Positions 57,019 to 62,591 of a DNA stretch of 64,000 nucleotides are shown piece after piece. Position 1 is the stretch's first letter, and each line of letters starts with the position of its first letter. The translations under genes were made by a program, and so were the position numbers. Source of the stretch: Sinomonas sp. ASV322 (GTDB taxonomy: Bacteria; Actinomycetota; Actinomycetes; Actinomycetales; Micrococcaceae); NCBI RefSeq assembly GCF_030908245.1, contig NZ_JAVFJJ010000001.1, positions 479,565-543,564 of the forward strand, in the 5' to 3' direction. The notes under the pieces are model-generated. The model was given only the letters and a program-made list of their open reading frames with translations. It was not told the DNA's origin and searched no databases.

Positions 57019-59034
57019 TCAGAGCGCCCGCGTGCGGACGGCCTCGACGATCCGCTTGACCGCCTCGTCGACGGGCACGCCATTGTCCTGGCTGCCATCG
57101 CGGAACCTGAACGACACGGCTCCGGCCTCGGCGTCCTCGCCACCCGCGATCAGCACGAACGGGATCTTGTCCTTGCTCGCCGTGCGGATCTTCTTCGGGA
57201 AGCGATCGCTCGAGGCGTCCACGTGGGCGCGGATGCCCTCCTTCTTGAGGCGATCGACGACGTCGTACATGTAGTCGTCGAACGCCTCGGCGACGGGAAT
57301 CCCGACGACCTGGACCGGGGCGAGCCACGCCGGGAAGGCTCCCGCATAATGCTCCGTCAGGACGCCGAGGAACCGCTCGACCGAGCCGAAGAGCGCACGG
57401 TGGATCATGACGGGACGCTGGCGCGTTCCGTCTGCGGCCTGGTACTCGAGCTCGAAGCGCTCCGGCAGGTTGAAGTCGAGCTGGATCGTCGACATCTGCC
57501 ACGTGCGCCCGATCGCGTCGCGGGCCTGGACGGAGATCTTGGGACCGTAGAACGCGGCCCCGCCCGGATCCGGCACGAGCTCGAGGCCGGAGGCCTCGGC
57601 GACCGCCGCGAGGGTGCTCGTGGCCTCCTCCCAGGCATCGTCCGAGCCGACGTACTTCTCGGGATCCTTCGTGGAGAGCTCGAGGTAGAAGTCGTTGAGG
57701 CCGTAGTCCTTCAGCAGGTCGAGGACGAAGTTGAGCGTCGTGGTGAGCTCATCCTTCATCTGCTCCTTCGTGCAGTAGATGTGGGCGTCGTCCTGGGTCA
57801 TGCCGCGGACGCGGGTGAGACCGTGCACAACGCCCGACTTCTCGTAGCGGTACACCGAGCCGAACTCGAACAGCCGCAGCGGAAGCTCGCGGTAGGAACG
57901 GCCCCGTGAGCGGAAGATGAGGTTGTGCATGGGGCAGTTCATGGGCTTAAGGTAGTAGTCCTGCCCCGGCTTGCGAACGGTGCCGTCCTCATTGAGCTCG
58001 GCGTCGACGTGCATCGCTGGGAACATGCCCTCGCGATACCAGTCGAGGTGGCCGGAGACCTCGTACAGGTGGCCCTTCGTAATGTGCGGCGTATAGACGA
58101 ACTCATAGCCGGCCTCGGTGTGGCGCTGGCGCGAGTAATCCTCCATGGACTTGCGGATGATGCCGCCCTTGGGGTGGAAGACCGGGAGGCCCGAGCCGAG
58201 CTCGTCCGGGAACGAGAACAGGTCGAGTTCGGCGCCGAGCTTGCGATGGTCGCGGCGCTCCGCCTCGGCGATGCGGTCCTGGTACTCCTTGAGCGCTTCC
58301 TTCGTGGGCCACGCGGTGCCGTAGATGCGCTGGAGCTGGTCGTTCTTCTCGCTGCCGAGCCAGTACGCCGCGGCCGACCGGGTGAGCGCGAACGCGTTCG
58401 AGATGAGCTTCGTGTTGGGCAGGTGCGGCCCGCGGCACAGGTCGTGCCACACGGCCTCGCCGTTCTTGCGGTCGATGTTGTCGTAGATCGTGATCTCGCC
58501 GGCACCGACCTCGATGTTGGCGCCCTCCTTCGCCGCCCCCTCGGACTGGTGGTCCTTGGCCCCGAGCAGCACGAGCTTGTACGGCTCGTGCTTCATGGCC
58601 TCGATCGCCTCGCCCTCCGAGACGCTGCGGCGCCTGAAGATCTGGTTCTGGTTGACGATCTTGAGCATCATCTTCTCGAGGGAGCGCAGGTCCTCGGGCG
58701 TGAACGGCTCTTCGACGTCGAAATCGAAGTAGAAGCCGTCCCTGATGTACGGGCCGATGCCGAGTTTCGCGTCGGGCCGCAGCTGCTGAACGGCCTGCGC
58801 CATGACGTGCGCGGCCGAGTGCCGGAGGACATTGAGGCCGTCCTCCGAGGCAACATCCACGCCTTCGACGACGGCGCCGGCCGGGATGGGCTGGTCGAGA
58901 TCCTTGAGCGCGCCGTCAACGCGGACGACGACGATCTCCCGCCTGCCGTCGAAGAGGTCCGCGCCCGTCGTGCCCCGCGTGACGGTCCGCTCCTCGCCGT
59001 CGACAGTGATGGTGATCTGTTGGGCATCTGACAC
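57019..59034 (-). CDS. thrS: Threonine-tRNA ligase
   Basis: A 671-residue class II synthetase with N-terminal TGS ([20 protein letters not shown]), editing domain ([15 protein letters not shown], with a further His in [12 protein letters not shown]-like CRGPHLPNT), catalytic core ([16 protein letters not shown] with the zinc-binding Cys, [15 protein letters not shown]) and anticodon domain ([19 protein letters not shown]). GTG 59034 has GAGGAG 6 bases upstream. TAGTCT at 59102-59107 (minus strand) is a possible -10. Confidence 0.96.
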
Positions 59035-59133
59035 GGGCGTCTCCTCTTCGTTGTCGGCTTCATAGCTTGTGGCATACGGGGACCACAGCCAGCCATCGTC
59101 AAGACTAGCGGAAAGGCGTGCGCACCCCCGCCG

Positions 59134-61752
59134 TCACGCAGCCGGCACGGACGACGGCGGGACTCCAGGGCGGTTGGGGACTTCGGCCTCGGCGATGTCG
59201 AGGGTGAGCTGCCCGTCGATCGACGTGCCCCAGTGCGAGGACGGCGGAGCCGGAGGTGCGAGCTGCTCGACGAGATCCGCTCCGCTCCCCCGGCTCACGG
59301 CCGCTCGGTGCAGCGAATCGAACGCCCCAGCCTGAGCGAGGCGCCGCACGCTCGCCCTGCTCGGCCGCGCCCGATCCAGAAGGTCCGCGATCGACGTGTA
59401 TGGCTGTCCCGCCACAATCCGTCGAAGGTCATTCCGGGAGAGGCCGTGGATGTCCCTGAGCGCGGGGCGGATGCCGAGCTTGCCGGCGTCCGGCCCCGAA
59501 TCGATCCGTTCGACGCAGTATCCGTCGCGGCTTTCGTTGGTGTCCGGCGGCAGGATCGGGATACCGAGCCGACGCGCCTCCGCGACGAGGAGGCTCCTGG
59601 GATATGTTCCTGAACGGTGCTCGAACATCCCCGCAAGGAACGCTTCGGGATGATGCGTCGCGAGCCACGCCGACTGGTAGGCGGGCAGCGCGGACGTGGC
59701 CCCGTGGGCTCGGGAGCTGCCAACCGCTGTGATGAGGTCGTTGAAGTCGCGGGGCGCCGTGCTCCCCGCAGCCGTGCGCCGGCCCGGGGACTCGACCGGC
59801 CGACCGCCAAGCGTGTGGGTCGAGCGGATGAGCTCGTACGTGGGCTCGTCGTCGAGGGGAATGGCATCGAGGTCGATCCGCGCGTCCTCGTGGGCGCCTT
59901 CGGGACCTGCAGCCGAGCCTCCGCGAATCCGCGCAATCTCGCGCACGGCGAAGGCCATCGTGCTCTGGAGGGGCGCTCCGTGGATGCCGAGCGTGAGCAG
60001 CCCCATGGAGTCCAGGTCGTGCCGGTCGAACTGGCTCATCGGCAGGCCTCGGCCGCTCGGCTGCACGGGCGTTCGGTCGAGCAGGCGCGCGTCGCCCAGA
60101 ATCAGCCCGCCCGGATGCATCGACAGGAGACGCGACTGCTGGTCAAGGACCTCGGTCGCGTCCACGGATAGCTCGAGCTGGCCCTCCTGCCCCGCGTGCG
60201 GGGCCACCGCGCGCAGCTCAGCCTCCTGAAGGATGCTGCCGGGACCGCCCACGAGCGCGACGCGCTCGGCGCCGAAGCGCTTGAAGACCTGCCGGTGCAC
60301 GGTGAGGCACGCAGCGTGCTCGACGGCGAAGCCTATGCGCGGGAGCGTGCGGCCATCGCGGGGAAGGAATTCCTCGAAGCTCAGCCGGTGCCGCAGCGGA
60401 TCGACGTGGCTGATCCCGAGGACATAATTGACCACGCTCGAGGCGCCCGAGCCTTGCACCGCCGACCGAACGCCCATGCCGCGGATCGTCTCCGCCAACT
60501 CGGCGACCGCGAGGAAGTAAGGCGCGACGCCGAGGCCGTCGATGACGCCGAGCTCATGCTCAAGCCGCGCAGCAACCCGGTCGTCGGTATCCCCCACGGC
60601 GCCCGGATAGCGGTCCGGAACGGCGGCGCGGCAGCGCTCGGCGAGCACGCGGATCGGTTCCCCGGTCACGCCGAGGACGGACGCCTCGGGGACGACTGGC
60701 CGCCGCCATCCGGCGTCGGCGGCAGGATCGAGCCGACAGCGGTCCGCGATCCGCTCCGTGTTGCCGAGGAGGTTCGCGAGGTCCTTCGCTCCGAGGCCCG
60801 CCGCGTGCACGATCTCGCGCCCGAGGCGATGCATGAGTGCCGCGGGCTTGAGCCAGCTGTGCCCCGTAGCGACGTCCGAGGCCTCGCCGGGCGGCATGGG
60901 CGCGCGGACGGCGGCGAGGACCGCCGCCGCTTGGGCGCGGGCCATGTCTGCGCGGGCCGCTTCGCCCCGAGGGGCGTCAGGGCGGGCCGATTCTGCGGCG
61001 GCCTCGTCAACGTGGCGGACCGCGTTCGTGAGCACTGCCGGGATGCTGTGCTCGCTCGCGAGACGGAGCATGCGCACGGCGTGCGCAGTACTAAGCGGTC
61101 GGCCGGGACCGGTCAGCTGGGTCACGAGCTCGACGGCGAGGGCACCCGCCGGCATGACGTCGAGCCACTCGCGGAACAGCGTTCGCGGGCGTAAGAACCG
61201 CTGCCCGGACAACGCGCGGCCAACGTCCGAATCCGGTCCGATGAGCACGGTCAGGACGGGCCTTCCGGTGTCGGGGTCGACGCACCGCGCGGCGAGCTCC
61301 GAGCGCAGGACGCCGACCGGCACCGGGCCGTTCCTCGTGGCCTTGGTCGCCGCGTGGGCGTCGGAGACGAGCCGGCACAGGGCCCTCCAGCCCGCCCCGC
61401 CGTTGCTCCCGTGGGCGAGCACGACGACGCGCCCCGCCACCCCGCGGGAACCGCGCCGTGGCCGCCGCGCACCTCGGCGAGCGCCGTCGTCGTCCTCTTC
61501 TGCGTGAACCTCGGCGGGTTCGGCGAGGATCGGGAGGTCGACGCCGACGATCGGATCGATCCCCGCGGCAAGGCACGCGCCGATGTGCCTGACGGCGCCG
61601 TAGAGGCCGTCGCGGTCCGTGCGGGCGAGCGCGGTGGCGCCGTCGGCCGCGGCGGCGGCCACGAAATCGTCGGGACGGGACCCGCCGCCAAATGAGCTGA
61701 ACGCGCTCGCGACGTGCAGATGCGTGAACGGTTCAGGCACGGGCTCTCTCAC
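59134..61752 (-). CDS. DnaE2-like C-family DNA polymerase homologue, catalytically degenerate
   Basis: An 872-residue homologue of the replicative/error-prone polymerase alpha chain (normally about 1050-1200). The PHP region is recognisable but altered: HLHVASAFS at 11-19 has Ala15 for a metal His, and TDHD reads TDRD. In the palm, GSGASSVVNYVLGISHVDPL is close to the family, but the PDIDIDIE metal site reads PRIGFAVE (471-478), losing all three Asp, and the third Asp (GLVKFDLLG) is Gly589 in GLLTLGIHG. The fingers after DFNDLI are largely deleted. The C-terminal helix-hairpin-helix part remains (LRDIHGLSRNDLRRI). GTG 61752 is chosen over TTG 61776. No frameshift or stop is present. Confidence 0.85.
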   Translation of the reverse strand: MREPVPEPFTHLHVASAFSSFGGGSRPDDFVAAAAADGATALARTDRDGLYGAVRHIGACLAAGIDPIVGVDLPILAEPAEVHAEEDDDGARRGARRPRRGSRGVAGRVVVLAHGSNGGAGWRALCRLVSDAHAATKATRNGPVPVGVLRSELAARCVDPDTGRPVLTVLIGPDSDVGRALSGQRFLRPRTLFREWLDVMPAGALAVELVTQLTGPGRPLSTAHAVRMLRLASEHSIPAVLTNAVRHVDEAAAESARPDAPRGEAARADMARAQAAAVLAAVRAPMPPGEASDVATGHSWLKPAALMHRLGREIVHAAGLGAKDLANLLGNTERIADRCRLDPAADAGWRRPVVPEASVLGVTGEPIRVLAERCRAAVPDRYPGAVGDTDDRVAARLEHELGVIDGLGVAPYFLAVAELAETIRGMGVRSAVQGSGASSVVNYVLGISHVDPLRHRLSFEEFLPRDGRTLPRIGFAVEHAACLTVHRQVFKRFGAERVALVGGPGSILQEAELRAVAPHAGQEGQLELSVDATEVLDQQSRLLSMHPGGLILGDARLLDRTPVQPSGRGLPMSQFDRHDLDSMGLLTLGIHGAPLQSTMAFAVREIARIRGGSAAGPEGAHEDARIDLDAIPLDDEPTYELIRSTHTLGGRPVESPGRRTAAGSTAPRDFNDLITAVGSSRAHGATSALPAYQSAWLATHHPEAFLAGMFEHRSGTYPRSLLVAEARRLGIPILPPDTNESRDGYCVERIDSGPDAGKLGIRPALRDIHGLSRNDLRRIVAGQPYTSIADLLDRARPSRASVRRLAQAGAFDSLHRAAVSRGSGADLVEQLAPPAPPSSHWGTSIDGQLTLDIAEAEVPNRPGVPPSSVPAA

Positions 61753-61781
61753 TCGGCTTCTTGGTCTTCTACCCAAAGTCT

Positions 61782-61797
61782 TCGAAGATAGTTTCGA
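61782..61797. promoter_or_regulatory. Candidate LexA (SOS) box in a divergent promoter
   Basis: TCGAAGATAGTTTCGA matches 13 of 16 positions of the actinobacterial SOS box TCGAACATATGTTCGA. Both 5-base half-sites TCGAA and TTCGA are exact and correctly spaced; the inner C and G are changed. It lies 30 bases before the DnaE-like GTG and 51 before the SRAP start, so it could control both. Confidence 0.5.
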
Positions 61798-61847
61798 ACA
61801 ATCCCAGTCTAGCCACGGCGTCAGGGGCGAGGTGAATAATGAGCAGC

Positions 61848-62591
61848 ATGTGCGGGAGATACGTCATGGCGAGGGGCGTCGGCGACCTCGTGGCCGAATT
61901 CGACGTCGACGAGACCTATGTCGACGAACTCGACGCGTCCTACAACATCGCTCCGACCGACCCCGTGCCGCTCATCCTCGACCGGAAGGACAAGGACAGT
62001 GGCAGCGTCTCGCGGAAGCTCGTGACTGCGCGATGGGGACTCGTGCCCTCGTGGTCGAAGGACGCGAAGGGGGCCGCGAAGCTCATCAACGCCCGGCGCG
62101 AGACCATCACCGAGAAACCCTCGTTCCGCAAGGCAGCCGCCCAGCGCCGCGCTCTCGTGCCGGCGGACGGCTACTACGAGTGGCAGCAGGAGCTCGTGGG
62201 CGGCAAGATCCACAAGATCCCGACGTATCTCCATGAGGTCGAGAACGGCGTGCTCGCGTTCGCGGCGCTGTTCGAAAACTGGCCCGACCCCGCTCTCCCG
62301 GCGGACGATCCCGCCCGTTGGCTCCGCACGTGCACGATCATCACGGCCCCCGCCGCAGACTCGATCGGGCACATCCACGACCGGACCCCGCTCATCGTGC
62401 CCAAGGACCTGTGGGCGGAGTGGCTCGACCCCGAGACAACGTCCGAGGCCGACATCCGCAGCCTCGTCGACTCGATGCCCGAACCGCACCTCGTTCCCAG
62501 GGTCGTCGGCAGTCTCGTCAACAGCGTGAGGAACAACGGCCCCGAGCTCATCGAGGCGGCCGGTCCCGAGTCGGGAACGCTCTTTTCCTGA
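61848..62591 (+). CDS. SRAP-domain protein (HMCES/YedK type)
   Basis: A 247-residue SOS-response-associated peptidase-like protein that forms a covalent link to abasic sites in single-stranded DNA. MCGRYVM supplies the catalytic Cys2, YNIAPTDPVPLI the Asn, ARWGLVPSWSKDAKGAAKLINA and RRALVPADGYYEW the DNA contacts with Glu, and TPLIVPKDLWAEWL the His region tail. Cys must be exposed by Met removal, so ATG 61848 is used; GAGGTG fits the in-frame ATG 61839 better by spacing, so the true start is not settled. It is divergent from the degenerate DnaE-like gene. Confidence 0.92.
   Translation: MCGRYVMARGVGDLVAEFDVDETYVDELDASYNIAPTDPVPLILDRKDKDSGSVSRKLVTARWGLVPSWSKDAKGAAKLINARRETITEKPSFRKAAAQRRALVPADGYYEWQQELVGGKIHKIPTYLHEVENGVLAFAALFENWPDPALPADDPARWLRTCTIITAPAADSIGHIHDRTPLIVPKDLWAEWLDPETTSEADIRSLVDSMPEPHLVPRVVGSLVNSVRNNGPELIEAAGPESGTLFS

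Follow-up and report, generated by a model that had tools for sequence, protein, structure and literature searches.

Recurrent loss of the catalytic aspartates in DnaE2B, a third DnaE homologue, and continued constraint on the protein in Sinomonas and a second genus of Micrococcaceae

A long open frame in Sinomonas sp. ASV322 encodes a homologue of the C-family DNA polymerases in which the catalytic residues are replaced, and it raises the question of whether such a gene is decaying or is kept for something other than DNA synthesis. The window that we analysed is a stretch of 64,000 nucleotides, and the gene occupies positions 59134–61776 on its minus strand, with 880 codons counted from a TTG and zero stops. 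Dinucleotide shuffles contained 9.4 stops on average and 0 of 300 were stop-free, indicating that the open frame is beyond chance. Judged from the aligned starts of relatives, which have it in common, a GTG at 61740 is the more likely start.

When aligned with complete orthologues, the palm motif PDIDIDVE was found replaced by PRIGFAVE (60319–60342, minus strand, residues 479–486 from the TTG) and GMLKLD by GLLTLG (59986–60003, minus strand, residues 592–597); the two stretches also align with PDFDVDFD and GLIKMD of the genome's own DnaE1 and with PDIDVDFD and GLVKFD of its own DnaE2. The three catalytic Asp sites are occupied by Arg, Gly and Gly, and all catalytic Asp are thus absent. At the junction DFNDLITAV/GSSRAHG, an in-frame deletion (59721–59722, minus strand) has removed 112 aa of the fingers relative to the orthologue of genome G013, and the alignment shows that the protein has also lost the OB fold close to its C terminus. 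The protein therefore belongs to the C family by descent, its PHP, palm and helix-hairpin-helix (HHH) being homologous to PolIII alpha, and lacks both the three catalytic Asp that characterize an enzyme of this family and the fingers. Pfam models scoring above their cut-offs were PHP (PF02811), DNA_pol3_alpha (PF07733), PF17657 (partial fingers) and HHH_6 (PF14579), with the PHP domain at 60991–61731 (minus strand, residues about 16–262) and the HHH at 59308–59565 (minus strand, residues 738–823). An AlphaFold2 model (mean pLDDT 71, pTM 0.70) was mostly confident in the PHP, the palm shell and the HHH, and its best PDB matches were PolIII alpha subunits, which the group profile matched as well.

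An earlier reading of the sequence alone had described the altered palm motif (placed at residues 471–478, counting from 61752), the missing third Asp, the lack of most of the fingers before SRAHG, a frame open over 2.6 kb and a recognizable PHP, palm and HHH, and had proposed a structure prediction; alignment, domain search and model agree with it on each of these points, and no intact Asp appeared at the metal sites against DnaE1, DnaE2 or the orthologues. It had also pointed to changed PHP ligands in HLHVAS and TDRD. They are indeed changed, but complete orthologues have the same changes, which are therefore not part of this loss. About two of the nine ligands of the PHP nuclease metal site, given as HHDHEH[C/H]DH in PMC12926913, are kept (His19 and His21, in an alignment judged by eye), and since the ligands are mostly gone in complete orthologues too, a nuclease role of the PHP is unlikely.

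The family model PF07733 matched this genome four times above its cut-off, once each in DnaE1 and DnaE2 and twice in parts of the window gene. The genome's DnaE2 (DnaE2A) has intact motifs and lies elsewhere, beside an imuA' that exceeds the cut-off of NF058630 and an ImuB frame with an IMS domain, so that the intact dnaE2, imuA' and imuB that the earlier reading had wanted sought are all present. In the main alignment the window protein was 58–60% identical to complete Sinomonas copies and 23–27% to the DnaE1 and DnaE2A proteins of that genus, and with a DnaE2A profile the own DnaE2A scored 1450 bits (cut-off 939), the window protein 247 and the complete copy of G013 621. Its closest sequences, and the locus that it shares with them, mark the window gene as the Micrococcaceae 'DnaE2B', a third DnaE of this genome. 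Of the derivation from DnaE2 that had been proposed, the non-catalytic DnaE derivative stood, but descent from the genome's mutasome DnaE2 was rejected, because the genome has that gene intact at another place, and because the window protein clusters with the third paralogue, a separate lineage. Downstream lies thrS (57019–59034, minus strand), and the order dnaE2B, thrS, HIT, pgsA, pdxS is common to six of the seven outgroup loci with one complete copy; it is absent in G018 and in loci L126–L129.

To see how widespread the loss is, we searched 245 genomes drawn from Micrococcaceae. Of these, 200 contained the PHP part of DnaE2B, and the palm pattern P-D-x-D-x-D-x-E (x hydrophobic), matched genome-wide with the lists compared by eye, was intact in 188 of these 200. 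The 12 palm-negative genomes were seven Sinomonas (G000, G005, G006, G008, G010, G011 and G012, of 12 Sinomonas with the gene), all four genomes of a second genus, g19 (G032, G059, G083 and G102), and G098, which is 85% complete and was counted as motif-negative and left out of the sequence reading. G083, with a 622-aa frame and a partial match, was left out of the sequence reading and of the dN/dS analysis, so that three g19 copies were read. The replacements in Sinomonas were PDLEIDVE/GVIKLG in G008, where the first Asp is kept, PGHGFDVE/GLGPVG in G006, PVFGLDVE/GLLTID in G010, where the third is kept, and AA(L/P)GLDVE/GLLTIE in G011 and G012; in G005 the palm is partly deleted and GLVRVD keeps the third Asp. 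The copies of G032, G059 and G102 read PGIELDLE or PPLELDLE, have Thr at the third Asp and 2 of 108 fingers residues, and carry other sequence at the OB position, with no OB detected by Pfam in G032. The boundaries of the fingers cut-out were similar across lineages (701–812 in the window gene, 700–817 in G008 and 671–812 in G010, in G013 residues).

Complete Sinomonas copies were found in G001, G007, G009 and G013, and the existence of complete orthologues in relatives indicates that catalysis was lost recently and locally. In G002–G004, three of 15 Sinomonas genomes, dnaE2B is gone and SRAP adjoins thrS, which shows that the gene is dispensable. Dead copies fall at three places on the tree of neighbouring genes, with G008 separate on both data sets. 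The dnaE2B data joined the window species to a second Sinomonas clade (clade 2, bootstrap 49) and rejected its species-tree placement (AU p 0.022, ΔlnL 7), while the neighbouring genes rejected that joining by a ΔlnL of 169; long-branch attraction is possible. At least three independent losses can safely be counted, at least two in Sinomonas and one in g19, and the number is probably three in Sinomonas plus one in g19. Some copies with intact motifs have other peculiarities: that of G014 (L051, 8843–12330) has a frame break after the PHP, which may be a sequencing error or a first step of loss, that of G035 (L126, 4899–8551) has an intact palm and breaks into two overlapping frames ahead of the HHH, and those of G187, G222 and G107 (L127, L128 and L129) are 1078 aa long with an intact PDVDIDVE and ImuB-C directly upstream, G222 having three DnaE2B matches.

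A motif scan located the palindrome TCGAA-N6-TTCGA, which from the actinobacterial SOS literature we take to be a LexA box, upstream of dnaE2B at 61782–61797. It is the single such site in the window, with 0 in 100 shuffles, and the genome contains 17 sites against 4 for the reversed control, another of them preceding imuA'. Among the loci examined, the box lay upstream of the dnaE2B unit, with or without imuB-C, in 12 of 12 Sinomonas, 3 of 3 g19 and 7 of 7 outgroup loci; it is kept in all ten dead copies examined and was not found at the three empty loci (G002–G004). After the HHH, in the low-confidence tail of the model, alignment placed a clamp-binding-type motif, GQLTLDI (59194–59214, minus strand). 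QL motifs of this type bind the sliding clamp in PolIII alpha. The form GQLxL is present in the complete Sinomonas copies and in six of the seven dead ones (GQLAF in G005), and in eight of ten dead copies overall. The dead Sinomonas proteins end 6–30 residues past the Gln of this motif; in g19, two of three copies have GQLxL and one GQSML, with about 95–115 residues following. As regards the wider group, the accessible text of PMC3919608 mentions QLPLx forms in actinobacterial DnaE2.

To determine the constraint on the dead copies, we estimated dN/dS with a purpose-written codon model (GY94-type, F3x4) on a fixed species tree; stem-branch omegas of 12.2, which sit at the optimizer bound, were excluded, and the g19 tree was set by hand and differs from the FastTree result in the attachment point of g19. 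Values were 0.03–0.04 in lineages with a complete dnaE2B versus 0.07–0.17 in dead lineages. On the post-loss branches of clade 2, whose shared loss was placed by parsimony from shared deletions and the lost palm Asp, dN/dS was 0.068 for the second half of the PHP, 0.151 for the HHH and 0.122 for the palm remnant (2ΔlnL against 1 of 297, 189 and 200, respectively). The branch of the window species, which includes time before inactivation, gave 0.056, 0.196 and 0.104 for the same three parts (2ΔlnL 24, 24.5 and 60); in the first part of the PHP the value was 0.171 and the test weak, with a 2ΔlnL of only 6.3. The second half of the PHP is the most constrained part of the window protein. Dead g19 copies gave 0.093 and 0.074 for the PHP, 0.247 for the palm and 0.254 for the HHH. 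The comparison genes thrS and SRAP gave 0.015 and 0.031, and a rerun of three domains on the alternative topology had the same outcome. Relative to complete copies, constraint in dead ones is relaxed about 2- to 13-fold, and GC2 of the gene is raised.

Internal deletions of at least 8 codons numbered 2 in the window gene, 3 in G008, 8 in G006, 4 in G010 and 7 each in G011, G012 and G005, many of them shared by descent and one in G010 sitting at its frame break; the complete copy of G001 also has two in-frame deletions. At the DNA level the large internal gaps, unlike the terminal ones of the aligned stretch, are multiples of three, a few as two adjacent alignment pieces. Between the PHP and the GQ motif the frame is uninterrupted in six of the seven dead Sinomonas copies; that of G010 is broken once, where the HHH begins. 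The sequence-only reading had reckoned with no catalytically complete orthologues in relatives, in which it was mistaken, and with a dN/dS away from 1, in which it was right: values are low after inactivation in two genera, so that a local decaying gene is an insufficient description too. What it proposed as a non-catalytic DnaE derivative under purifying selection has thus held, its best-kept modules being modelled partner binders and its surroundings a SRAP gene and a LexA-type box. A retained non-catalytic function of dead DnaE2B is therefore well supported.

The loss goes together with the canonical mutasome. ImuA' scored over its cut-off in 42 of the 245 genomes, 27 without a dnaE2B match and 15 with one, and the palm pattern was lacking in 11 of these 15 versus 1 of 185 dnaE2B genomes without ImuA', the single exception being the incomplete G098 (Fisher p 4e-14 by genomes, which are non-independent, and 0.003 by genera, G098 not counted). 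Among Sinomonas, G009 alone lacks ImuA', and it has a complete DnaE2B with ImuB-C beside it. In g19 the ImuB-C gene still lies upstream of the dead dnaE2B, with a dN/dS of 0.038 and 93–98% identity between species. In five other genera (g8, g15, g18, g26 and g31), 0 of 24 ImuA'-bearing genomes have a DnaE2B match, suggesting that the two error-prone systems are almost mutually exclusive in Micrococcaceae. In the family search, imuA' of one genome (G005:C1:3221076-3221523) appeared as two overlapping pieces, as if its frame were broken.

The reading that we consider rather more probable than its competitors together is that dead DnaE2B is a C-family pseudo-polymerase kept for binding, as a mutasome scaffold or competitor. 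The ancestor was the accessory polymerase DnaE2B, usually behind a LexA-type box with standalone ImuB-C in Micrococcaceae, and in lineages also having ImuA'-ImuB-DnaE2 it has lost the catalytic Asp, the fingers and the OB fold several times, mostly in-frame, with selection keeping the PHP, the HHH and the GQLxL motif. The protein, presumably damage-induced, would bind an ImuB-C domain through its PHP, on ImuB in Sinomonas and on the standalone protein in g19, and the sliding clamp through GQLxL, without DNA synthesis; once bound, it may tune or compete with the active mutasome during the SOS response, by assembly or by restraint. Because the PHP is the best-kept part yet lacks most metal ligands, its likely function is binding, and, with the nuclease site degenerate, selection probably acts on that binding and not on a nuclease activity. 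In the accessible text of PMC12926913, DnaE2–ImuB contacts are modelled from the PHP to ImuB-C and from the HhH to the thumb, and the modules kept in dead DnaE2B are those two. The partner mechanism itself, binding to the mutasome and the clamp, could prove wrong as readily as right. Against the explanation as a whole we counted the relaxed constraint and raised GC2, the time before inactivation included in the branch of the window species and the weak test there for the first part of the PHP, the dispensable gene, the frame break of G010, the deletions of G001, the GQSML of one g19 copy with the trailing residues in that genus, and the missing ImuB-C partner.

This last point bears on the best placed, though unlikely, alternative, a retained function outside the mutasome, such as PHP/HHH binding to DNA, to SRAP or to another repair factor. 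Upstream of dnaE2B, a standalone DUF6504 (ImuB-C) gene was found in G009 and at every one of 14 other Micrococcaceae loci tested (13 times directly adjacent, and about 1.8 kb away in L126), but not at 11 of the 12 Sinomonas dnaE2B loci, the window locus included and four of the 11 catalytically intact; at these loci the partner would have to be ImuB's own ImuB-C region. The DUF6504 search across Sinomonas gave sub-threshold matches only, except in G009, and the model detected no ImuB-C domain in the genome's own ImuB; PF20114 had no match over its cut-off in this genome, and the same model misses its cut-off in g19 too. The alternative also gains from the divergent SRAP gene (PF02586, 61839–62591, plus strand), which is present at all 12 Sinomonas loci having dnaE2B and, in 10 of 12 gene lists, is the adjacent divergent gene. 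It does not account for the coincidence of the kept modules with those modelled to bind ImuB in the accessible text of PMC12926913, nor for ImuA' in 11 of the 12 motif-negative genomes. A search for anti-phage defence families gave no match.

Plain decay, in which DnaE2B became redundant once the mutasome was present and its pseudogenes stay open by chance in GC-rich DNA, is likewise improbable and ranks next. The complete orthologues, the ImuA' of the motif-negative genomes, the loss of the gene in G002–G004, its lack in the 24 ImuA' genomes of the five other genera and the raised dN/dS and GC2 would all fit it, but dN/dS of 0.07–0.25 on post-inactivation branches in two genera, the stop-free frame, the whole-codon internal deletions in copies that mostly remain open and the box retained in every dead copy examined argue against it. 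That the frame is kept solely because an untranslated stretch would be polar on the essential thrS downstream is very unlikely. In its favour, the two genes lie 99 bases apart in the window, a scan of 58950–61900 found no terminator (0.6 expected by chance) and the internal deletions are in frame. Against it, polarity leaves the amino-acid constraint concentrated in the PHP unexplained, the dead gene of g19 lies away from thrS, for which three 15-kb loci gave no match, and the frame breaks of G010 and G014 and the deletion in G002–G004 all occurred at the thrS-linked locus.

The pseudo-polymerase reading can be set beside known systems. In its accessible text, PMC12926913 links DnaE2B only to ImuB-C, in a DnaE2-[ImuB-C] group exemplified by Arthrobacter alpinus, and describes DnaE2B genomes as without imuA and imuB; our assignment to this group follows the locus and the ImuB-C linkage rather than that paper's tree. 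The genes studied here share with the group thrS downstream, a LexA-type box upstream, ImuB-C upstream in relatives, the PHP with lost metal ligands and GQLxL after the HHH. They differ from it in having lost the Asp, the fingers and the OB fold in 7 of 12 Sinomonas and the three g19 copies read, and, as far as that text describes the group, in the presence of ImuA' in these genomes and the missing ImuB-C at 11 of 12 Sinomonas loci. In how it would work, dead DnaE2B resembles ImuB, which is also a dead polymerase of the damage response and has kept the parts that bind partners and the clamp, but ImuB is of the Y family and dead DnaE2B of the C family, and unlike ImuB, an essential component of its complex according to the available part of PMC6511836, the converted DnaE2B is recent, recurrent and dispensable. 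Inactivated PolX and PolX-like proteins, as presented in the accessible portion of PMC12926913, have likewise lost polymerase activity and kept the PHP domain; PolX, however, keeps the PHP nuclease site, whereas that of DnaE2B is degenerate.

The catalytic Asp (D401, D403 and D555 of E. coli) are stated to be absolutely conserved across the C family in the available text of PMC3919608. The accessible sections of PMC12926913, a 2026 survey, describe dead members for the Y and X families and not for the C family, and report that sequences which were truncated or had diverged strongly were removed ahead of the tree. A literature search gave no report of a dead DnaE, as far as titles and abstract openings show, and nothing came up for Sinomonas combined with DnaE2. 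The repeated, selected loss of catalysis in this polymerase, linked as it is to the mutasome, would be a natural experiment on binding versus synthesis parts, and would make dead DnaE2B a candidate for regulating induced mutagenesis among soil bacteria.

Finally, the replicative polymerase also varies within the genus. DnaE1 of G005 and G006 are 93% identical to each other and about 79% to those of the window species, G007 and G013, which are 95% identical among themselves, and DnaE1 of G009 is 82–84% identical to both kinds. G010–G012, relatives of G005 and G006 on the species tree, have the other kind, judged by ORF length only, and DnaE1 may have been replaced within Sinomonas.
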